Origin: a virus
Direction: 5' to 3' (one strand)
DNA length: 48,791 nucleotides
Virus record (IMG/VR): IMGVR_UViG_3300046507_000366
Location: 1-48,791 of that record
Part shown: piece by piece, positions 5,593 through 18,670 of the stretch
How positions within the stretch are numbered: the stretch's first letter is position 1
Layout: each line of letters begins with the position of its first letter
Position numbers and translations under genes: made by a program
Notes under the pieces: model-generated
Database searches by the model: none
Seen by the model: the letters and a program-made list of their open reading frames with translations, nothing else
What the model was told of the DNA's origin: nothing

Positions 5593-5602
5593 CTTATACC
5601 AA
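5593..5602 (-). promoter_or_regulatory. TTGGTATAAG promoter-like box at the palindrome edge
   Basis: Minus strand reads TTTTTGGTATAAGAAGAAT upstream of the 112-residue gene. It lies immediately outside the TGTCCA-box array, so a protein bound to the array could influence this promoter. Confidence 0.55.
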
Positions 5603-5624
5603 AAACTGGACTTTCAGATCCATG

Positions 5625-6197
5625 TGTCCAGTTTTGTCCAAAAGTGTCCAGTTTTGTCCAAAAGTGTCCAGTTTCTTCGAAAACCTGAAACCCAAGCCCA
5701 GTAAGGGTTTGCGGCCGACGTGTCCAGTGTGTCCAATTTCTCTAAAAAAAACTGGACAGCTGAAACCCAAGCCCAGTAAGGCTTTGAGGGGATTTGTCCA
5801 GTTTTTTCGCCTTTTTTCCAAAAACCATACCTCACTTTCTTTTTGACTAAATAAAAAACAAAAAAGGAAAAACTTAGGGTTCACCCTAACAGTCCAGAAA
5901 TATGGGGGTACTATATATATATTTATATTTGAACTTTTAAAAAATATATTTATATATAAGAGAATGTGTTTTCTATTTTGCTTATTTTTTATTTGTAAAA
6001 GGAAGTGAGGTATGGTTTTTCCAAAATCTTCAAAAAAACTGGACAAAATCGCTGTGAGCCTTATTCCGTATGGGTTTGAGCCTGTCCAGTTTTTTATTTG
6101 AAAATTGGACAGACTGGACACACCGCCCGCAAAGCCTTACCCAGTAAGGATCTCAGCCTTTTGAAGAAACTGGACACTTTTGGACAAAACTGGACAC
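5625..6197. repeat. ~550-bp palindromic array of TGTCCA boxes around an AT-rich core (candidate replication or partition locus)
   Basis: TGTCCA starts at 5625, 5635, 5645, 5655, 5665, 5721, 5730 and 5795, with its reverse TGGACA at 5753. On the right, TGGACA starts at 6040, 6106, 6115, 6171, 6181 and 6191, and TGTCCA at 6083. Nearly all pairs mirror exactly about position 5920.5. Two arms are perfect: 35 bp (5644-5678 with 6163-6197) and 18 bp (5820-5837 with 6003-6020). The centre is a TA-rich run (about 5909-5960). Five left boxes are spaced exactly 10 bp apart, so they lie on one face of the helix. Copies of a CCCAGTAAGG-like element lie in both arms. Symmetric boxes with an easily melted centre suggest an origin; a centromere-like site is an alternative. 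The 5541-6387 stretch holds no convincing gene. Confidence 0.75.
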
Positions 6198-10308: not shown

Positions 10309-11574
10309 TTAGAATTGATCTACATTGTCCCAGACGCTACCCGTCGCAGGAGGTACTGATTCAGGAAGTGCAAACGTGTCGTTGTTAGCTTCAGCTTCAA
10401 AGTCAACCAACGCAGGACCACTTGCTTCACCGACCAACGGTTCAGCGTTGAATGTAATCGTGGAAATCTCTACATTCATCGGCTCAACTTGAATCACTGG
10501 ACGTAGTTCCTTCACCTTCGTTTTCTTCTTCGGAGCTGCTGCCTTAACTTCTTCAACTACCGGGGCACCGACAGTTTGAGCAGCGAGGAGAGCATTAACA
10601 GCTTCAGTATTTTGATGAAGGAACTGACCTAGTAAATCATCATCTCCAGCGCTCTGCTGCACATGAAGGAGCATTCCGTCATCTACTCCAATACTTCGAA
10701 TGGTGGTACCGCTGTGAATCATTTTATTACGATACTCTACAACAGTGTTTTTCGTATAGGCTGTAGAGCCTTTAACGATATCGATTGATACTGCGTTGTA
10801 GTCGATAACCTTGTTATAGTAATGGTTCTGAACAAAAGACAGAATGTACATTGCCATCAAAGAATTGATAGCCAACGTCTGATCTAGATCTGCGCAACTA
10901 CCGAGTCCAGGGTTATCTTCCAAATCACGATAAAAATGAAAATCGAACGGAATGAAATTCAAAGGCTCAGGTACAAACTCAATGCGTTCCGGATTTTTGT
11001 ATTTTTTACGAGCCACCTCTTCATTCTGGAACCTATGGTCCACAAGAACTGCATTGTGGAACATGCGAACCTGACCGAAACTATCTTCGTTACCAGCATC
11101 GATAAATACAGTATTCTCCCCGTATACGCCCTGCAGTGCCTGAATAACAATACGACGAGCCTTGGCACTATCAACGCACATGATTACCATGTCGTTGTAG
11201 TTATTGGTCAAATTAAGACCAGTGGCTTCATTTAGAAGACTACGGAAGTTCTGCGGATTCGTACCTTCTTCGATGTACTTCATGTACGGAACAACATTCA
11301 TCCCATACGCCTTACCATACCGATTTGCCAGAACCAAGGCCTTGTTCTTACCCACATCGCTCTGAACGAAGTTCTGACGAATCAGATTCTTCTGTTCCAC
11401 TACGTCACCGTCAACCAGGACGATGTTCGTAGTTCCAAGCCAGCCAGAGGGCACGTGTTCTTTCGTGATTGAACGAATGAACTGAATCAATGCCGGTACG
11501 AGTCGTGAACCAGTTCCTCCACAGCCAACTACGAAAATGTTCGAGGGAATCGAGGAAGGACGGAAAGTAAACAT
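10309..11574 (-). CDS. E1-like ThiF-family adenylyltransferase (PRTRC ThiF-like)
   Basis: A 421-residue protein. FVVGCGGTGS (14-23) is the nucleotide-binding Rossmann loop, and VLVDGDVVEQKNLIRQNF (52-69) is the E1 signature with D57, R66 and the downstream K76 for ATP. MCVDSAKAR (132-140) and GSCADLDQTLAINSLMA follow, with C227 the best candidate for the catalytic thioester cysteine. E1 enzymes adenylate the C-terminal glycine of a ubiquitin-like protein, here presumably the tandem protein encoded at 15.8-16.2 kb. Residues ~300-421 form an Ala/Pro/Glu-rich tail outside the fold. It has its own promoter box at 11651-11660 and a CAGGAG ribosome-binding site. Confidence 0.85.
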   Translation of the reverse strand: MFTFRPSSIPSNIFVVGCGGTGSRLVPALIQFIRSITKEHVPSGWLGTTNIVLVDGDVVEQKNLIRQNFVQSDVGKNKALVLANRYGKAYGMNVVPYMKYIEEGTNPQNFRSLLNEATGLNLTNNYNDMVIMCVDSAKARRIVIQALQGVYGENTVFIDAGNEDSFGQVRMFHNAVLVDHRFQNEEVARKKYKNPERIEFVPEPLNFIPFDFHFYRDLEDNPGLGSCADLDQTLAINSLMAMYILSFVQNHYYNKVIDYNAVSIDIVKGSTAYTKNTVVEYRNKMIHSGTTIRSIGVDDGMLLHVQQSAGDDDLLGQFLHQNTEAVNALLAAQTVGAPVVEEVKAAAPKKKTKVKELRPVIQVEPMNVEISTITFNAEPLVGEASGPALVDFEAEANNDTFALPESVPPATGSVWDNVDQF

Positions 11575-11650: not shown

Positions 11651-11660
11651 CTTATACCAA
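11651..11660 (-). promoter_or_regulatory. TTGGTATAAG promoter-like box for the E1/ThiF gene
   Basis: Minus strand reads TCTTTGGTATAAGAATATTG, 77 bases upstream of the ThiF-like start and overlapping the stop codon of the upstream small gene. It would let the E1 be transcribed separately from the rest of the cassette. Confidence 0.6.
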
Positions 11661-11861
11661 AGAATCGGTATTTAAAGGACGAGGTCCAGTCTCTTCTCCG
11701 ATGATGGCTACACCGCCACAAGCATCGAGTTGAGCAAGATAATTCTTGGAAGCTTCAGCCTCTCGTTCAGGCGTAGCCATCATACATCTGAAACAGATTG
11801 CTGAAAAGTTAGGACCGTATGGTCTTGTCTCTTTATCTTCTTTGCAGTATACGCAAATCAT
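11652..11861 (-). CDS. Small zinc-finger-like protein (69 residues)
   Basis: Two CxxC pairs (CVYCKEDK at 3-6 and CFRC at 23-26) form a likely treble-clef or ribbon-type zinc site. The C-terminal half is helical and then Gly-rich. Function unknown; it could be a small nucleic-acid or protein adaptor. The ATG overlaps a preceding nine-codon frame (ATGA) and has an AAAGGAAG site upstream. It is the last gene of a tightly overlapped four-gene cluster lying between the JAB and E1 genes. Confidence 0.65.
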   Translation of the reverse strand: MICVYCKEDKETRPYGPNFSAICFRCMMATPEREAEASKNYLAQLDACGGVAIIGEETGPRPLNTDSLV

Positions 11862-11879: not shown

Positions 11880-11984
11880 TCAGTCATTGTTAGCCTCTGC
11901 TAACCATTCAAGAAAGTGTTCGTAATTTCTGAAAGCGCGTTTAGTACCTTTGCACGACAGAAAATATAGGAACCATTCAGTCAT
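11880..11984 (-). CDS. Small overlapping gene, 34 residues
   Basis: Its ATG overlaps the stop of the upstream gene as ATGA, and its own end is followed by another ATGA junction. The product begins MTEWFLYFLSCKGTKRAF and ends EWLAEANND: aromatic N-terminus, basic middle, acidic end. It shares a W-rich, E-W-L style with the 39-residue product two genes upstream. The exact stop-start overlaps on both sides are the main evidence for coding. Confidence 0.55.
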   Translation of the reverse strand: MTEWFLYFLSCKGTKRAFRNYEHFLEWLAEANND

Positions 11985-12250
11985 GTTGAAGTGAATTTTT
12001 CAGACTCCCTAACAATAAGCGCATCCTGCCAAGCTATTTGCCAAGTAAACCAATCAACGTTAATCCCTGCTTGACGCTGAGCGTCGAAGCCTTCCTTCAT
12101 TGACACTCTACGAGTATCCCTGTCTTGAAGTTTTCCTACAAATGGGAACACTACTCCACGGATACGTTCCCGCAATTGTTGTGTCTGACCGTATTGCTCG
12201 GCTACTTCCGTCAACTGGGAAACTAATTCACGAATTTCATGGTCTTTCAT
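11981..12250 (-). CDS. Unknown helical protein (89 residues)
   Basis: The start is placed at MKDHEIRELVSQL because this ATG overlaps the stop of the upstream 39-residue gene as ATGA; an upstream GTG in frame lacks that support. The product is charged and helical (QLTEVAEQYGQTQQLRERIRG), with a W-rich C-terminal part (INVDWFTWQIAWQDALIV). No family recognised. It is part of the four-gene minus-strand cluster between JAB and E1. Confidence 0.6.
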   Translation of the reverse strand: MKDHEIRELVSQLTEVAEQYGQTQQLRERIRGVVFPFVGKLQDRDTRRVSMKEGFDAQRQAGINVDWFTWQIAWQDALIVRESEKFTST

Positions 12251-12366
12251 TTGTACCCCATGATTTCGAGCCACTCAGCATACGAGCATTCCATAACACT
12301 GCCAGATTGCATGTGCCAGTTCTTATTCCACACATACAACAACCAGAGTTCAGTTGTATCGCTCAT
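12247..12366 (-). CDS. Small gene, 39 residues, first of the overlapped cluster
   Basis: ATG follows AGAGAGTTGAA, right after the terminator of the JAB gene. The product begins MSDTTELWLLYVWNKNWHM and ends EWLEIMGYK. Four tryptophans in 39 residues is unusual. It joins the next gene by a 4-base ATGA overlap, supporting real translation. Function unknown. Confidence 0.55.
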   Translation of the reverse strand: MSDTTELWLLYVWNKNWHMQSGSVMECSYAEWLEIMGYK

Positions 12367-12413: not shown

Positions 12414-13745
12414 TTAGTGAATACCGTTCATCTGGATTCGTTCTTGAGCCTTGTCAGGAAGTTCCTGATACAAGTCTCTGAACAATTCCTCTTGACCTTC
12501 TTCGGACATCATGTGAATCATGTCGCTCATCAGGTTACGAACGAGATCATCTTTGCCATTCAGAACAGACATCCCATCATCGATCAAACAGAAGATGTCA
12601 GCAACGTCTTTACCGTGTTCTTCCTTGACTTCTTCATACCGCTCATCACAGTCAAACGTGGTGTTAACGTCAGGATCGAAGTCAGGATTATACGGGTGAA
12701 CACGGGGACTGTAGTCTAGATGTGAATCCTCATACCCCGGATCTTCACGGAGCACTGCCAAAGCACGTTCTGCTTTGTCCAGAGTAAGCTTCGAAGGATC
12801 AATGATTCCATCAGCATCTACATCGTCGGGGTTGAAGGCCCAGGACTCCCAAGGAAATCCTCCACCTCCGGAAAGGTTAGCTGCCTCGGATCCGAAACGC
12901 TCCTCCCAATAGTTCCCATAACCATCGGGAAGTAACCCCCTATCGTGAGCCAGCATATGTGGACCTGCCCGATTTCCTTCGCTTGTGTTTTCTCCCCTTT
13001 TGTACTGCCAGGGTTTGAGATGATCCGCTTTTCCCTTTTGGTTGTTCCCTCCCGTCGAATACCCAGTGCTCGTAGTCACGATCTTGGAAATCCAATCTTC
13101 AGGAATTGCTTGCTCTTCACGAACCGGGAGAACAAAGATGTCATCGAATTCACATTCGATTTTCTTATCCTTGTAGTTAAAGCGCCACACTGTCTGCGGA
13201 GTTTCATCCTTCAGACGGCCAACAACACCGGAGAATCCGATATTGCCTTGGTCATCACGGTTGTCTGTACCGCTGAAGAATGCACCCATCGTATTGTGAC
13301 TATGAATATCACAGACGATAGTCTTACCAGCAGGCAACGAAGCCCAGTCATACGAAGCCGAAGCCTTTGACACACGTTGTTCAGGGACAATCAGATGATA
13401 ACCACTTTCTTGATCCCAACAAACCCAAATCATTGCTTCAAGCTCGGACTTCTTCACTTCCATGACTTGCTTGAAGAATGCCACGACTTGATCGAACAAC
13501 TGAATCGGAATCTTGCCATCAGGCAGGAAGTTGATTTCTTGAGAAACCTTTTCTTCCTTGTAGTTAGCCGGAAGCTTGTCAACCTTAAGACGAACGAAAC
13601 GATTACGACCACGAAGCTTGTGATGCTTGACAATACCCTCACTCGTCATAGCGTAGATTTCGCTATAACCAGCTTCAATTGCAGTTTGAAGCTCGTTGGG
13701 AAGAACTACGCAGCTGATGTGTTGGCTGATGATTTCCATTTTCAA
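12414..13745 (-). CDS. JAB/JAMM metalloprotease (PRTRC protein A-like deubiquitinase)
   Basis: A 443-residue protein. DIHSHNTMGAFFSGTD (146-161) is a complete JAMM motif, H-x-H-x7-S-x2-D, with H148, H150, S158 and D161; E101 or E103 is the likely upstream catalytic glutamate. JAMM enzymes cut after the C-terminal glycine of ubiquitin-like proteins. Here it may separate the two ubiquitin-like units or reverse conjugation. Residues 1-95 form an N-terminal domain like that of PRTRC protein A. The long C-terminus (~230-443) is acidic, Gly/Pro-rich and without a recognised fold. It starts 15 bases after the E2-like gene. Confidence 0.85.
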   Translation of the reverse strand: MKMEIISQHISCVVLPNELQTAIEAGYSEIYAMTSEGIVKHHKLRGRNRFVRLKVDKLPANYKEEKVSQEINFLPDGKIPIQLFDQVVAFFKQVMEVKKSELEAMIWVCWDQESGYHLIVPEQRVSKASASYDWASLPAGKTIVCDIHSHNTMGAFFSGTDNRDDQGNIGFSGVVGRLKDETPQTVWRFNYKDKKIECEFDDIFVLPVREEQAIPEDWISKIVTTSTGYSTGGNNQKGKADHLKPWQYKRGENTSEGNRAGPHMLAHDRGLLPDGYGNYWEERFGSEAANLSGGGGFPWESWAFNPDDVDADGIIDPSKLTLDKAERALAVLREDPGYEDSHLDYSPRVHPYNPDFDPDVNTTFDCDERYEEVKEEHGKDVADIFCLIDDGMSVLNGKDDLVRNLMSDMIHMMSEEGQEELFRDLYQELPDKAQERIQMNGIH

Positions 13746-13759
13746 ATATCCTTAATTAC

Positions 13760-14515
13760 TTAGGGTTTCGTATAACCACGGAGTTTTTCATACGGGAACG
13801 GCTCGTTGTTCTTAGCTGCTGTTTCAAGAGTCTTGAACCAATCTTGTGCAACAACCTCTTCTTTTAACGAGCGCAAACCCAAGTCATTGTTAAACGGAGA
13901 TTCAAACAGGAACTGATAATACCAATTCAAGCCTTGCAGATTGTTGTCTTGGAAATGTGAAGGCATCGAGTTTCCGCCATAGCACATATGACCTTCTGCG
14001 TATGTGTTCGGAAACGGAGACAGATATACACGATTAGTCGGATTCTGATCCCAGATCAAACCCTTCGACAAAGCACCTGATCTCTTATCCGTACAGAAGA
14101 ATCGTGATCCAACCGTTCTCCATTGCTTGTTATTATGCTTTTCTAACTTATGGCTGATGATGATATTCGGAGTCTTGACCGTATACTTTCTGTCAAGATG
14201 CTGCATCTCAGCGACACGTTCTGCATAATAACAACTGAGCTGAATCGATGTACCAGACTTTGCAAAGAAGAAACAGTTTGCAGGAAGTTGGAAACCTTCA
14301 AGCGATTCTTCATTACGACGATTCAGCACAGCACTGATGATGTTACCGAAATCTTCATACGTGATTCGCTTCTCAATACTGCTGGTGTCATCACCAATTA
14401 CTACTGCCACGCAATCTTCCAGAAGGATGATGTGCTGACCCTTGGTATCAACGAGGTTTTCCTCTGCTACAGCACTAACGTCAACGCTAGCCGTTTCAAT
14501 AGTAATATCGCTCAT
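13760..14515 (-). CDS. E2-like protein (Prok-E2 family D / PRTRC protein B-like)
   Basis: A 251-residue protein. VYLSPFPNTYAEGHMCYGGNSMP (163-185) resembles the conserved segment of PRTRC protein B and the bacterial E2-D family, making C178 the probable thioester cysteine. The N-terminal half is beta-rich (IILLEDCVAVVIGDD). The C-terminal part (SHFQDNNLQGLNWYYQFLF ESPFNNDLG) is helical. It would accept the ubiquitin-like protein from the E1 and pass it to targets; no separate E3 is recognised. It overlaps the 84-residue gene by four bases (ATGA) and is followed by JAB. Confidence 0.72.
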   Translation of the reverse strand: MSDITIETASVDVSAVAEENLVDTKGQHIILLEDCVAVVIGDDTSSIEKRITYEDFGNIISAVLNRRNEESLEGFQLPANCFFFAKSGTSIQLSCYYAERVAEMQHLDRKYTVKTPNIIISHKLEKHNNKQWRTVGSRFFCTDKRSGALSKGLIWDQNPTNRVYLSPFPNTYAEGHMCYGGNSMPSHFQDNNLQGLNWYYQFLFESPFNNDLGLRSLKEEVVAQDWFKTLETAAKNNEPFPYEKLRGYTKP

Positions 14516-14766
14516 ACGAAATCCTCTTCTTCCTCAACAGCCGCATGCTTGGCTTTTACGATGTTTGCTTCGATGTTCTTAAGATCCACTCTGCGTCTGC
14601 TATTGTTTTCACATGCAAACGTCTTACAAGTTACGATCATTAGAAGTTCGAGTTCCTTGTGACCCAGTTCTTCACCGATAGTTTTAAACTTCTCCTGGAC
14701 ACTTTTTACTTCTTGTGACAGATCAGGAAGCTTCGCTGCTTCCGATATTAAACGCTGCAGTATCAT
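14512..14766 (-). CDS. Unknown 84-residue coiled-coil-like protein in the ubiquitin-like operon
   Basis: Mostly helical with heptad-like spacing (LISEAAKLPDLSQEVKSVQEKFKTIGEELGHKELELL), then a CKTFACENNSRRR stretch and an acidic end (EEEEDFV). Its start lies inside the last ~44 bases of the 301-residue gene, and its stop overlaps the E2-like start. It is thus translationally coupled on both sides. No family recognised; a small adaptor for the conjugation enzymes is possible. Confidence 0.6.
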   Translation of the reverse strand: MILQRLISEAAKLPDLSQEVKSVQEKFKTIGEELGHKELELLMIVTCKTFACENNSRRRVDLKNIEANIVKAKHAAVEEEEDFV

Positions 14767-15628
14767 AGCTAACTTTTCTGGAAAGTGTTTTAATAACCTG
14801 TTGAAGTTCTTCCAGTATCAGGAAGATTTTCTCAGCAGACACGTATTTCTCAACCCCAGGATAAAACGTAGGTACCCGACGAGACGTGATATCGAAAGTT
14901 TCCCAATTTCTAACGTCTCTTAATGAGGCCAATCTCTCGTTATGCTTATATTCAATAAGATAGTTTTCGTAGTCTTCGTATGTATTGATGCCATCAACAA
15001 GATTGTTAGTTATAACTCTTACATACTCGTCGTAAAAATATCCTCTTATCGAAAGCTTGGCCGTAAGAGTGATTCGCATCCGCACTTTACATGGACTAGC
15101 CTGGGTTTGATTCCATGCATGAAACGCATTCATATCTTCAGGATGAGTTTCATGGGTAAATCGAATACGCTCTAAGTTCAAAGGAATACCACCTCTCATA
15201 CACTTAAAGTTCAAATACTTAGTGTATCTGCGCATCGACCTTACCCAGTGCATTCTTTCGCTCAAAGTACTTATCGAATCCCAAGGTTCTACATCAAAAG
15301 TCATATACGGAGATACGATTTTTAAAGCAACGGCATTTGAAGAAGTACTATTGATAATGATATCGCCACCGGCAATATACTCAATATAAGGAACTTGTTT
15401 CTTTACTGCTTTGTACAGAATATCTTTAAGCTTTTGAACAGACTTACGTTGACCGCCAGCTCTTGCACCAGAGATGTCGAACTGATAATTAAACGTTTTA
15501 GTGGAGAGCTTATGATCCAGGATCTTCTTTGTACAGAATACTCTGAGCTTCTCTTCTGCTTCTAGTCTCATCTTCTGAAGTTGCCGAGGCAAATCAGATT
15601 CTGAGCGAGGTACTTTAAAAGTTTGCAT
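14723..15628 (-). CDS. Unknown 301-residue protein in the ubiquitin-like operon
   Basis: No family recognised. It is basic and mixed alpha/beta, with a GARAGGQRKSVQKLKDIL segment (54-71) that could bind phosphate or nucleic acid and a beta-rich middle (YIAGGDIIINSTSSNAVALKIV). Cysteines are few and unpaired, so it is not RING-like. It is the first gene after the terminator-like hairpin that follows the ubiquitin-like gene and it overlaps the 84-residue gene. Placement makes it a candidate conjugation target, adaptor or new component of the system. Confidence 0.6.
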   Translation of the reverse strand: MQTFKVPRSESDLPRQLQKMRLEAEEKLRVFCTKKILDHKLSTKTFNYQFDISGARAGGQRKSVQKLKDILYKAVKKQVPYIEYIAGGDIIINSTSSNAVALKIVSPYMTFDVEPWDSISTLSERMHWVRSMRRYTKYLNFKCMRGGIPLNLERIRFTHETHPEDMNAFHAWNQTQASPCKVRMRITLTAKLSIRGYFYDEYVRVITNNLVDGINTYEDYENYLIEYKHNERLASLRDVRNWETFDITSRRVPTFYPGVEKYVSAEKIFLILEELQQVIKTLSRKVSYDTAAFNIGSSEAS

Positions 15629-15690
15629 TCTTATTGTCCTTGAGTTATTCCCGTTTTTCTTAAGCTCCTAGCTCGACTAAAAAAAACAGG

Positions 15691-15730
15691 AAAAACGAGC
15701 AGCGTGGCTAGGAGTGAACCCTGCTGCTCG
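15691..15730 (-). terminator. Terminator-like hairpin between the ubiquitin-like gene and the enzyme genes
   Basis: Minus strand CGAGCAGC / GCTGCTCG perfect 8-bp stem with TTTTT after it. Its loop contains CTCCTAGC, which can pair with GCTAGGAG just downstream (about 15665-15672), giving an alternative fold. It may limit transcription into the enzyme genes. Confidence 0.7.
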
Positions 15731-15768: not shown

Positions 15769-16191
15769 TTAACCCTTCGTGCCGGTACGCGGCTTGAAGG
15801 TGATTTCACGGACGGTCTCGCCGTCTTGCGTCACAACACGCTCTTCGAACTGCATCGAACCGATGTTCGGAATGTCGTTCGCATAATTGCGTTGGATCGA
15901 TGCCGGGGTATAGTCACCCGGGATTTGGTACTCCGTGTCCGTCGAAGCGATGGTCACGATGGTCTTCGTTACGCCAGCACCCTTGGTGCCCGTACGGGGC
16001 TTGAAGGTGATCTCACGAACCGTTTCACCGTCTTGCGTCACGACACGTTCTTCGAACTGCATGCTGCCGATATTAGGAATATCGTTAGCGTAGTTGCGTT
16101 GGATCGAAGCAGGCGTGTAATCGCCCGGAATTTGGTACTCGGTGTCGGTCGAAGCGATGGTAACGATAGTCTTGGTTACGGTTGCAGCCAT
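15769..16191 (-). CDS. Tandem ubiquitin-like protein (two identical PRTRC-C/Prok-Ub-type units)
   Basis: A 140-residue protein made of two 67-residue copies (V5-G71 and V74-G140), identical in every residue and joined by an Ala-Gly linker. Each has a beta-grasp-like pattern (TKTIVTIASTDTEYQIP, SIQRNYANDIPNI, REITFKP) and ends in GTKG, the ending I recall for PRTRC protein C. Known role of the family: a ubiquitin-like modifier activated at its C-terminal glycine by the E1. Inference: JAB cuts after G71 to release units, as in polyubiquitin. The DNA copies differ at ~30 positions, all silent. The gene is visibly richer in GC than its neighbours. It is first in its unit, after a promoter box at 16265. 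Confidence 0.82.
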   Translation of the reverse strand: MAATVTKTIVTIASTDTEYQIPGDYTPASIQRNYANDIPNIGSMQFEERVVTQDGETVREITFKPRTGTKGAGVTKTIVTIASTDTEYQIPGDYTPASIQRNYANDIPNIGSMQFEERVVTQDGETVREITFKPRTGTKG

Positions 16192-16264
16192 GTTTGTAAA
16201 TCCCTTGTTTTTAGCTAAAGAAAAGAATGGACTTTGGAAATGTATTTTCTACCTGTCCAATATA

Positions 16265-16424: not shown

Positions 16425-16916
16425 CTACCTGACCAAAGCAACCGAACAGACGTAACCGCCGTTCATCGCTTTTCGCAGGATCTCAGCTATTTCAGTGAAT
16501 GTAGCACCCATGTCATTAATACCCGCAAGTGCAAGCGAGGAAATTTCAAGGGTGTTTCCGTCGCCATCCGGAAATCTACCTCCTACATGAAATCCCAGAG
16601 GTCCCATTTCTAATCCATACCATCGCCTAGCTGTTGGCACGAGATGGTCTTTAGAGGTTTGCAAGCCCTTATCTGAGGTTGTTAGATGGAAGCTATATAC
16701 AAGTGGCTCTTCTTCCTTAACCCAACCCTTAGGATTAATTAGATCACACGCAACTCCTAAACAACAAAAGCCACCGGTATCCCTGAGAGCAAACTTGATC
16801 TGCTTGAAACTGCCAGACTCCAAAGCTTCAATCCATCGTAGCCAGTGCACCCTCTGTTCGTCATCCAGAGAAATGCTAGGTATACGTTCAATTACTGCGC
16901 CACATGTTAGTTTCAT
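16425..16916 (-). CDS. Conserved phage protein with FCCLGVACD motif, unknown function
   Basis: A 163-residue protein. RWIEALESGSFKQIKFALRDTGGFCCLGVACDL is a pattern I know from many small phage proteins of unknown function, where the motif usually reads FCCLGVLCD. A Gly-rich centre (GGRFPDGDGN) and a final ALAGINDMGATFTEIAEIL helix also match that group. The ribosome-binding site is AAAGGG. It is single-gene and divergent from terminase, with a TTGGTATAAG box at 17028 and a weaker TTGTTATAAC closer to the start. Confidence 0.65.
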   Translation of the reverse strand: MKLTCGAVIERIPSISLDDEQRVHWLRWIEALESGSFKQIKFALRDTGGFCCLGVACDLINPKGWVKEEEPLVYSFHLTTSDKGLQTSKDHLVPTARRWYGLEMGPLGFHVGGRFPDGDGNTLEISSLALAGINDMGATFTEIAEILRKAMNGGYVCSVALVR

Positions 16917-17059: not shown

Positions 17060-18670
17060 ATGGACAAAGAAAGCCTTTTAAAACTAAAGCCCTCCGAGAT
17101 TTCCAAAGCTCTGCTCACTCTTAAAGGTAAGCCTCTCAATCTCGAAGATTACAAGCCGTTTGAAATCATCTATGACGTTTCTCCTAATGAAATGACTTTG
17201 ATGGCAGGTCGGCAGATTGGCAAATCAGTATCTCTTGGCGCAGCTATTGTAGCCAACAGTCTAGTTCGCCCTCACTTTTCGACTCTGTTCAGTAGCCCAT
17301 TGTCTCAACAGACATCACGATTCTCAACAGCATATTTAGATCCCTTCTTAAGTTCCCCTCTTATCCGTAAGCACTTCGTTGATGCGGGCTCACGTAAGAA
17401 CGTATTCTCAAAGTCATTTACTAATGGCAGTGCTGTAACATTGGGTTACGCAGAAACAGAACAAGACGCCGACCGTATTCGTGGAGTCTTCGCTGACGCT
17501 CTGTACCTAGATGAGTTCCAAGATACCAGTCTTGAATGTGCCCCTATTCTTGCAGAAACGTTGGGTGCTTCAGACTTTGCATTCAGACGATACACAGGCA
17601 CGGCTAAAACAGAGACTAATTCACTCACACAGAAGTTCAAGCAATCGAACATGATGGAGTGGGCGGTTAGATGTACGCATTGCAATAAGTACACGCTACC
17701 CCTTGATTTCGATATTTGCCATACGATTCTGCATGCCAATAAAGAAGGTCCAGGCTGTGTGTACTGCGGAGGTCTGCTCGATATGTCCACTGGTAAATGG
17801 GTGGCAGCAAAACCTGCTGAGAAAGACCATTACGGGTTTCATTTACCTCAGCTTATTTTCCCTGCACGTACGAGACCTAAGAAGTGGAAGGATCTACTTC
17901 ATAAGGCCAAGACTTATTCAGTGCCTAAGCTTGCTAACGAAGTGTTTGGATGCCCTAGCGGTCTAGCTGGTCGTCCACTATCACTTAAAGAAGTAATGGC
18001 ATGTTGTAACAATAACAAGACAGAGTGGGATAAGGGTTTCCCAATGGATGAACGTAATATTCTCCATACTGTGCTTGGAGTAGACTGGTCAGTAAGTGGT
18101 GGTTCTAATTCATACACCGTTATTACAATCATGGGTTACGACTGGAATGGTAAGGGATATCTTATTTACGCCCAGCGCCTGAATGGTATTGATATTCTTG
18201 ATCAGGTTAAGCGTGTTGAAGAACTATACGCAAAATACAAATGTACAATGCTTGCTTCAGACCGTGGTGTTGGCCAGTTACAAGTAGAATTGCTTAGAAA
18301 AAGTATTGGCCAGGATAAAGTAAATTCTGTACAATATGTAGCAGCAAAGTCTACGCTTCGTTGGGACAGAGAAGGACAGTTCTTTTCAGCAGATCGAACA
18401 ACGAACATGGACACGATTGTATTGAAGGCTAAGATTGGCCGTGATCGTATCGAGACTCCTTGTTGGAACCTGATGTCTGAATTCTGGCAGGACGCATTGA
18501 ACATTTTCGAAGAAGAATCCGTGACTGGGCGTCGTCTGTATAAAAAAGATGAAGACTTGTGTGATGATTGGTTCCACAGTGTAGTTTTCGCTAATATAGC
18601 GTATATGGTTCTTAAGGGTGAGTTCACAACGGTGGACGAGATTAAAGAGAACAACGTATTTGATTTTTAA
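17060..18670 (+). CDS. Terminase large subunit (TerL)
   Basis: A 536-residue packaging motor. AGRQIGKS (49-56) is the Walker A motif and ADALYLDEFQD (145-155) the Walker B with catalytic E152. The C-terminal RNase H-like nuclease shows LGVDWSVSGG (D342), MLASDRGVGQ (D401) and CDDWFHSVVFA (D502/D503). A CxxC...CxxC zinc ribbon (C205, C208, C233, C236) is inserted after the ATPase core, as in some large-phage terminases. It cuts concatemeric DNA and drives it into the procapsid. Portal and capsid genes are not adjacent; tail-assembly-chaperone-like genes follow. The start has AGGATC directly upstream. Confidence 0.9.
   Translation: MDKESLLKLKPSEISKALLTLKGKPLNLEDYKPFEIIYDVSPNEMTLMAGRQIGKSVSLGAAIVANSLVRPHFSTLFSSPLSQQTSRFSTAYLDPFLSSPLIRKHFVDAGSRKNVFSKSFTNGSAVTLGYAETEQDADRIRGVFADALYLDEFQDTSLECAPILAETLGASDFAFRRYTGTAKTETNSLTQKFKQSNMMEWAVRCTHCNKYTLPLDFDICHTILHANKEGPGCVYCGGLLDMSTGKWVAAKPAEKDHYGFHLPQLIFPARTRPKKWKDLLHKAKTYSVPKLANEVFGCPSGLAGRPLSLKEVMACCNNNKTEWDKGFPMDERNILHTVLGVDWSVSGGSNSYTVITIMGYDWNGKGYLIYAQRLNGIDILDQVKRVEELYAKYKCTMLASDRGVGQLQVELLRKSIGQDKVNSVQYVAAKSTLRWDREGQFFSADRTTNMDTIVLKAKIGRDRIETPCWNLMSEFWQDALNIFEEESVTGRRLYKKDEDLCDDWFHSVVFANIAYMVLKGEFTTVDEIKENNVFDF

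Follow-up and report, generated by a model that had tools for sequence, protein, structure and literature searches.

The window analysed here, that is, the whole 48.8-kb virus record, carries on its minus strand an open reading frame of 140 amino acids (15769..16191) that was recognised, from reading of the ORF and a profile alignment to the plasmid PRTRC protein C, as a polyubiquitin-like gene of two ubiquitin-like (Ubl) units. The ORF consists of MAAT, a 67-residue unit, an Ala-Gly linker and a second 67-residue unit, and the two units are identical at 67 of 67 residues. According to the translation, complemented for unit 1 by an AlphaFold2 model, unit 1 covers residues 5-71 (15979..16179) and ends in RTGTKG, the linker occupies 15973..15978, and unit 2 covers residues 74-140 (15772..15972), with RTGTKG as its natural C-terminus. 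A terminator-like hairpin, CGAGCAGC / GCTGCTCG plus a T-run, was read from the sequence and folded directly after the Ubl gene (15691..15730, same strand). The minus strand also encodes a 301-aa protein (14723..15628) which, from the plasmid-like gene order, takes the place of PRTRC protein F and may be a substrate or adaptor factor; a conserved small protein of 84 aa (14512..14766); an E2-like enzyme of family D with catalytic Cys178 (13760..14515; PF14460, 35.3 bits against a cut-off of 25); a JAB/JAMM protease resembling PRTRC A (12414..13745; PF14464, 39.3 bits, cut-off 25), whose start is likely the ATG at 13739; and an E1-like ThiF enzyme with candidate catalytic Cys227 (10309..11574; PF00899, 54.7 bits, cut-off 28.1). 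A terminase gene (17060-18670, plus strand) lies near the Ubl gene and points away from it, and the cassette is found beside a terminase gene in the window group and in L016-L018. Several small ORFs accompany the cassette: a 163-aa ORF (16425-16916, minus strand; phrog_18067), which may belong to the module, adjoins the Ubl gene here and likewise in L003, L016, L017 and L018, and two small minus-strand ORFs between the JAB and E1 genes (11652-11861 and 11981-12274) correspond to phrog_18256 (E 1.2e-22) and to a 97-aa protein matching several PHROGs of unknown function, with small ORFs also lying between JAB and E1 in L003 and L016-L018.

The active sites of the three enzymes are intact. The E2 cysteine and the E, H, H, S and D of the JAMM site are invariant in 19 of 19 aligned rows each, as are the glycine loop, Asp55, Arg66, Lys78, Asp135 and Cys227 of E1 in 17 of 17 rows; the roles of these E1, E2 and JAB residues are assumed from what is generally known of the families. 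Downstream of the E2 cysteine, one position is His in both plasmid rows and Asn in all 17 phage rows. An E2 with the invariant Cys and a JAMM protease both stand beside the Ubl gene in the 16 phage loci where both could be read, and Pfam and NCBIfam scans of the cassette matched no sulphur-transfer family. Among solved structures, E1 has two ThiF-type relatives at E 0.0018, and the E2 profile has none at E <= 1. PADLOC models matched none of the five non-E1 proteins and matched E1 weakly, in the ThiF part only (E1-E2 models, best E 1.3e-6). The 301-aa protein is 54% identical to its L003 counterpart, and its model (pLDDT 71) had no fold match at E <= 0.001.

The relation of the Ubl itself to PRTRC protein C was assessed by comparing profiles. 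Alignment of 13 phage units with 10 plasmid C proteins by hhalign gave a probability of 84.4 (E 7.1e-6) and ran end to end through GTKG. Single-sequence HMMs call no Ubl: TIGR03738 (PRTRC_C) reached only E 0.019 on this protein, far below its cut-off, and Pfam and PHROG scans of single units yielded nothing usable. All four window proteins with a match, the Ubl included, stay under the curated NCBIfam cut-offs (15.1 of 45.95, 29.3 of 131.45, 77.1 of 101.8 and 91.1 of 144.75 bits), among them the JAB protease against PRTRC_A (77.1 bits), E1 against PRTRC_ThiF (91.1 bits) and E2 against PRTRC_B. On the plasmids of Azospira and Paraburkholderia, the genes of the PRTRC cassette run C-F-B-A-ThiF, with GVGTKG closing protein C of Azospira. 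The AlphaFold2 model of the unit (mean pLDDT 87) has a beta-beta-alpha-beta-beta topology and a disordered C-terminal tail; its structural matches are middling (best Z 5.2 for protein L and G, 4.9 for MoaD and 4.8 for ubiquitin), and Foldseek returned no match at E <= 0.001. Genes of this type also occur elsewhere. Acinetobacter phage ME3 (L085:1236-4346), on a record of which the label 'PRTRC system protein A' is already present, has a related cassette whose JAB gene breaks off at DIH within the JAMM motif and apparently resumes about 2 kb on, past a tRNA and ORFs resembling a homing insert; its gp322 (63 aa) ends in GNKAA and may be its Ubl. In two contigs from Clostridia-type bacterial genomes (L080 and L082), a PRTRC A-type JAB domain is fused behind other domains.

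The first-pass annotation had described 67-residue copies matching everywhere and about 32 base differences, all silent, including a serine switch between the TCG and AGC families, and had proposed an exact codon alignment with dN/dS. The recount agrees in every particular: 32 of the 201 bases and 30 of the 67 codons are different between the units, and no amino acid is changed. Of these base differences, 30 fall at third codon positions and the other two are the first and second bases of the serine switch between AGC and TCG; 16 are transitions and 16 transversions. The NG86 method gave 47.3 synonymous and 153.7 non-synonymous sites, a pS of 0.62 and a dS of 1.33, and the formal dN of 0.016 arises solely because the method averages over the mutational paths of the serine switch. 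By a hand estimate in which silent sites make up about 23.5% of all sites, the chance that 30 changed codons are all silent is about 1e-19. The related contigs L002-L005 likewise have no amino-acid change between units and 32-35 base differences; L001 and L005 are not independent cases, since their Ubl DNA is the same as that of the window and L003, respectively. An antisense ORF (15826-16218, plus strand), considered as a second gene and rejected, is also open in L003 but looks like a by-product because changes that are silent on the sense strand alter its residues. An Rfam scan of the Ubl region gave nothing over a gathering score.

At silent sites the units are as different as chance would make them. 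The number of same-residue codons that differ between units is 30 of 67 in the window, 23 of 66 in L034 and 21 of 61 in L040, and shuffling codons within units leads one to expect 31.7 +/- 3.1, 26.8 +/- 2.9 and 24.3 +/- 2.8; the units are thus at silent saturation, neither above nor below it. Comparison across phages showed 10-12 base differences between unit 1 of the window and unit 1 of the related contigs and 9 between the respective units 2, against 30-35 between unit 1 and unit 2. Each unit is therefore closest to the unit in the same position in other phages and keeps its own silent pattern, without any trace of homogenisation; the earlier claim of strong selection on the protein with little recent homogenisation is borne out. 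Concerted evolution by gene conversion would explain the identity of the two proteins, yet it would not leave silent sites randomised between the units and unit-specific silent patterns preserved from phage to phage; these patterns contradict it for the window lineage, and as a general explanation it is extremely improbable. L034 has one run of 38 identical nt between its units, of the kind that conversion would leave, at the 95% edge of the permutation.

The constraint on the protein is a property of the two-unit genes. Between the units of one gene, pN/pS is 0.026 in the window, 0.053 in L034 and 0.015 in L040, and for one-unit pairs with measurable divergence it is 0.514 (L016-L017) and 0.339, 0.322 and 0.410 (the three pairs among L038, L039 and Salmonella phage Arash); the L017-L018 pair, which differs by one silent change, carries no information here. 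Fisher tests on the numbers of residue-changing and silent codons separated the window units from L016-L017 (p = 6e-8), the L034 units from L034-L049 (p = 0.00078) and the L040 units from L038-Arash (p = 0.006) and L040-L038 (0.049 and 0.021), pairs within one lineage not being mutually independent. The units are 98-100% identical in all three two-unit groups, and one-unit genes diverge freely, being 18-31% different from each other and at least 35% different from the window unit. Against the related genome G003, the Ubl is the only 100% identical ORF among the 54 window ORFs with a match (median 87.0%; E1 71%, E2 70%, the 301-aa protein 54%), and at silent sites it has the second-lowest divergence (pS 0.20 against a median of 0.544). 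The lowest belongs to a doubtful ORF (5594-6121, minus strand), which has pN > pS against G003 though its DNA is rather conserved, and which is probably not coding on this strand. The protein does change from lineage to lineage: identity to the window unit is 28-65% elsewhere, which is not the near-invariance across species of polyubiquitin. Nor is unit identity universal, since in Vibrio phage D69, whose gene has three, the units have diverged (28 to 36 of 59 residues common, 47-61% identical). Units that diverge freely, named in the first-pass annotation as what would speak against its reading, are thus seen in D69 and not in the two-unit genes. What is frozen is the two-unit gene.

A different reading of the same identity is that the duplications are young and that silent codons were actively scrambled as a guard against recombination or deletion of the repeat, the identical protein then reflecting recency and not constraint. 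Orthologous units of the window and G003 are indeed much closer (pS about 0.2) than the two units of one gene (0.62), and the residues at unit positions 8, 25, 36 and 53, which are peculiar to the window group, are present in both units, so the doubling probably came after those four changes and, in this lineage, after the split from one-unit relatives. Scrambling should, however, leave an excess of silent differences, and codon permutation, run lengths and the polarity of change against G003 gave none: silent differences are not above random codon choice in any lineage, the longest identical runs between units (14, 38 and 21 nt) are not shorter than in permuted sequences, and between the window and G003 seven changed codons moved toward unit equality and seven away from it. 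This reading is considered unlikely.

The number of units varies among relatives, as a comparison of homologues suggested in the first-pass annotation brought out. Of 17 records searched with a profile, to which several of them had contributed, 11 have one unit, 5 have two and 1 (Vibrio phage D69) has three, with Ubl matches at one place per record in all 17; with 11 of the 17 having a single unit, doubling is not needed for the system. L041, which is distant and ends in ATKG, was excluded from the unit statistics, and Vibrio phages D148 and D181 were matched, their Ubl genes lying outside the unit data. The two-unit genes form three groups, namely the window with L001-L005 (linker AG), L034/L035 (STGP), and L040 (AE). 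Mapped on the JAB tree and the E2 tree, each of 19 rows, possession of two units requires three changes, and a single change suffices in 0% of 200 bootstrap trees. Doubling is thus recurrent; the three changes could in principle include losses of a doubled state, and separate gains are favoured because the linkers differ and the nearest relatives have one unit. Since near-identical units are found at each of three separate places in the trees, a single chance duplication does not account for them, as had been claimed from the window gene alone. It may be, as a tentative proposal that we hold to be rather less probable than not, that polyubiquitin genes arose in phages on three or more occasions and that the step from one to two units freezes an otherwise freely evolving modifier, copy number itself giving ubiquitin-like invariance: where two copies fit one enzyme set, any co-evolutionary change would be needed twice. 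If true, copy-number freezing would be a natural and testable model for the near-unchanging ubiquitin of eukaryotes.

The ends of the units bear on how they are used. RTGTKG is kept internally in all three two-unit lineages, and GTKG is kept in all three D69 units despite their 47-61% identity and differing linkers. The D69 protein (L019:8388-9179; 263 aa) has three diverged Ubl units and a long acidic linker, with GTKG closing each unit and a five-residue tail, INYSK, at its end; L036, D69 and one plasmid protein have residues beyond the glycine and would need trimming. Among the comparative data, the strongest hint that processing may occur is that internal GTKG persists even where the units have diverged, as in D69, and from these internal ends together with the JAB gene we infer that the units are separately used modifiers. 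The units could instead stay joined as one linear di-Ubl tag of which only the terminal glycine is used, as in ISG15 and the two-domain Ubl of Bil defence systems. The linker of only two residues and the natural end of unit 2 at GTKG would suit such a tag, but the preserved internal RTGTKG of three two-unit lineages and the internal GTKG of the D69 units, preserved despite low identity elsewhere, speak against it, one-unit genes in 11 of 17 records indicate that a unit works alone, and fused domains could specialise, as those of ISG15 have, while the window units are identical. A joined tag is accordingly judged unlikely, though somewhat less so than scrambled young duplicates.

Codon usage and hairpins suggest, at the level of sequence, that more modifier than enzyme may be made. 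The GC3 of the Ubl gene (0.66) is the highest of 62 window ORFs (next 0.54, median 0.38); it is also above that of the cassette enzymes in L016, L017, L030 (representing L031 and L032 too), L034 and L077, and D69 and the Arash-type phages show no such rise. By CAI, computed with E. coli weights, the Ubl of Salmonella phage Arash ranks first of 44 ORFs at 0.751; the major capsid protein has 0.669, the F-like protein and the enzymes have 0.31-0.46, and the Ubl of five related phages has 0.667-0.729, Salmonella being the host of Arash. The Arash Ubl frame itself (L020:107-307; 66 aa, ending RRTGTKG) is unannotated, and GenBank gp251c (102-320) lies in another frame. Under a strict terminator scan, 14 of 18 Ubl genes are followed by a hairpin and T-run, as are 1 of 16 E2, 8 of 17 JAB and 13 of 15 E1 genes, compared with 8 of 360 shuffles; the window, whose hairpin fails because its loop is too long, and L003, L004 and L077 are scored as misses in the 14 of 18. 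At 15650-15730 of the window (minus strand), and in the same place in L003, L004, L016, L017 and L018, two successive hairpins follow the Ubl gene. The loop sequence CTCCTAGC of the first and GCTAGGAG in the second are exact reverse complements of each other in the window, L003 and L017, and over a shorter stretch in L016. A loop-loop contact or an antiterminator is possible from this complementarity, and no Rfam family matched.

The Ubl could instead be a sulphur carrier of the ThiS/MoaD kind or an abundant virion part, and not a protein modifier. In favour of this are the predicted beta-grasp fold with a single terminal glycine, the MoaD chains among the structural matches, the very high codon adaptation, which in Arash exceeds that of the capsid gene, and the cassette products among the particle proteins of that phage. 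The list of 116 purified-particle proteins, drawn up under a loose criterion, includes Gp246, 247, 248, 249 and 251, and its authors state that abundant proteins may be carried over into particles (PMC10585845); the Gp251 entry is given little weight because it follows the authors' own annotation frame and because of this possible carry-over. Against it stand the E2 with an invariant cysteine and the JAMM protease, both present in the 16 loci mentioned above, and the outcome of the Pfam and NCBIfam scans, which matched no sulphur-transfer family in the cassette. We regard this reading as unlikely, at about the same level as codon scrambling.

The reading that is preferred here, and considered fairly probable, is that the gene encodes a highly expressed phage polyubiquitin-like precursor which the JAB protease cuts into interchangeable modifiers. 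Such a precursor would yield a pair of identical beta-grasp modifiers of 67 residues with RTGTKG at their ends. A cut by the JAB protease encoded nearby would fall after the first GTKG, the second unit having that end already. E1 would then activate the C-terminal glycine and take the modifier onto its cysteine, and E2 would pass it to lysines of target proteins, from which the JAB protease could remove it again. A doubled unit, host-adapted codons and a hairpin before the enzyme genes would together provide the modifier in excess, as for a reagent that is consumed. As one set of E1, E2, JAB protease and targets has to accept either unit, selection would remove protein changes in each of them, and silent sites would drift to randomness. 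For the phage, the modifier may serve to tag proteins of the host or of its defences, or else the abundant structural proteins of the phage itself; an abundant target would agree with the codon data.

Among known systems, the PRTRC cassettes of plasmids (NCBIfam TIGR03734-TIGR03738 and related families; Table 1, row 6d of Iyer et al. 2006) are alike in content and order, with C(Ubl)-F-B(E2)-A(JAB)-ThiF(E1), a Ubl end of GTKG or similar, and catalytic residues in common. The differences are that the cassette is here borne by phages, that the phage E2 has Asn at the conserved His site, that none of 10 phage records (some of them fragments) has the ParB-family gene TIGR03734, and that some phages have two or three Ubl units where all 10 aligned plasmid proteins have one. 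In the operon rows of Iyer et al. (2006, PMC1779556), type 6d is predicted as a bacterial ubiquitin-like conjugation system, and tandem Ubls are described for type 6e, not for 6d. The bacterial polyUbl operons of row 6e resemble the phage gene in having 2-3 tandem Ubl domains in an E1/JAB operon, but there JAB is fused to E1 and the E2-like protein is inactive, whereas in the phage JAB, E1 and E2 are separate and the E2 cysteine is kept. The finding is a phage-borne PRTRC-like cassette with a doubled Ubl gene; the search listings of open-licence PubMed Central papers contained no paper on a phage-borne PRTRC-type polyUbl. ISG15 and the Bil, Bub and CBASS E1-E2 systems likewise place Ubl conjugation machinery in the conflict between virus and host, with the difference that here the virus owns the machinery. 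Ubiquitin-like tagging has so far mostly been discussed as host defence, and a phage with its own E1, E2, protease and polyubiquitin-like gene would extend it to phage offence or assembly.

Eukaryotic polyubiquitin is approached in one respect and not in others, so that the likeness proposed in the first-pass annotation stands for the head-to-tail identical units that differ only silently in the window gene, and not for a protein frozen across lineages, as one-unit relatives diverge. The tail of eukaryotic ubiquitin is GG, whereas the phage Ubl ends in GTKG; the phage gene has only two units, and its protein varies among lineages. Whether the identity of polyubiquitin repeats is due to concerted evolution or to purifying selection is an old dispute. 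As told in PMC10457151, eukaryotic repeats are usually more alike within than between species, although Nei and co-workers made the case that purifying selection acts in the absence of homogenisation. Within a phage gene the units are less alike in DNA than orthologous units are, the reverse of the usual eukaryotic pattern, and the phage gene is a clean case of purifying selection without homogenisation. Relatives with one unit, with two and with three are known, some of them isolated phages of Salmonella and Vibrio, so both this dispute over repeat identity and the function of PRTRC-type Ubls can be tested in the laboratory.
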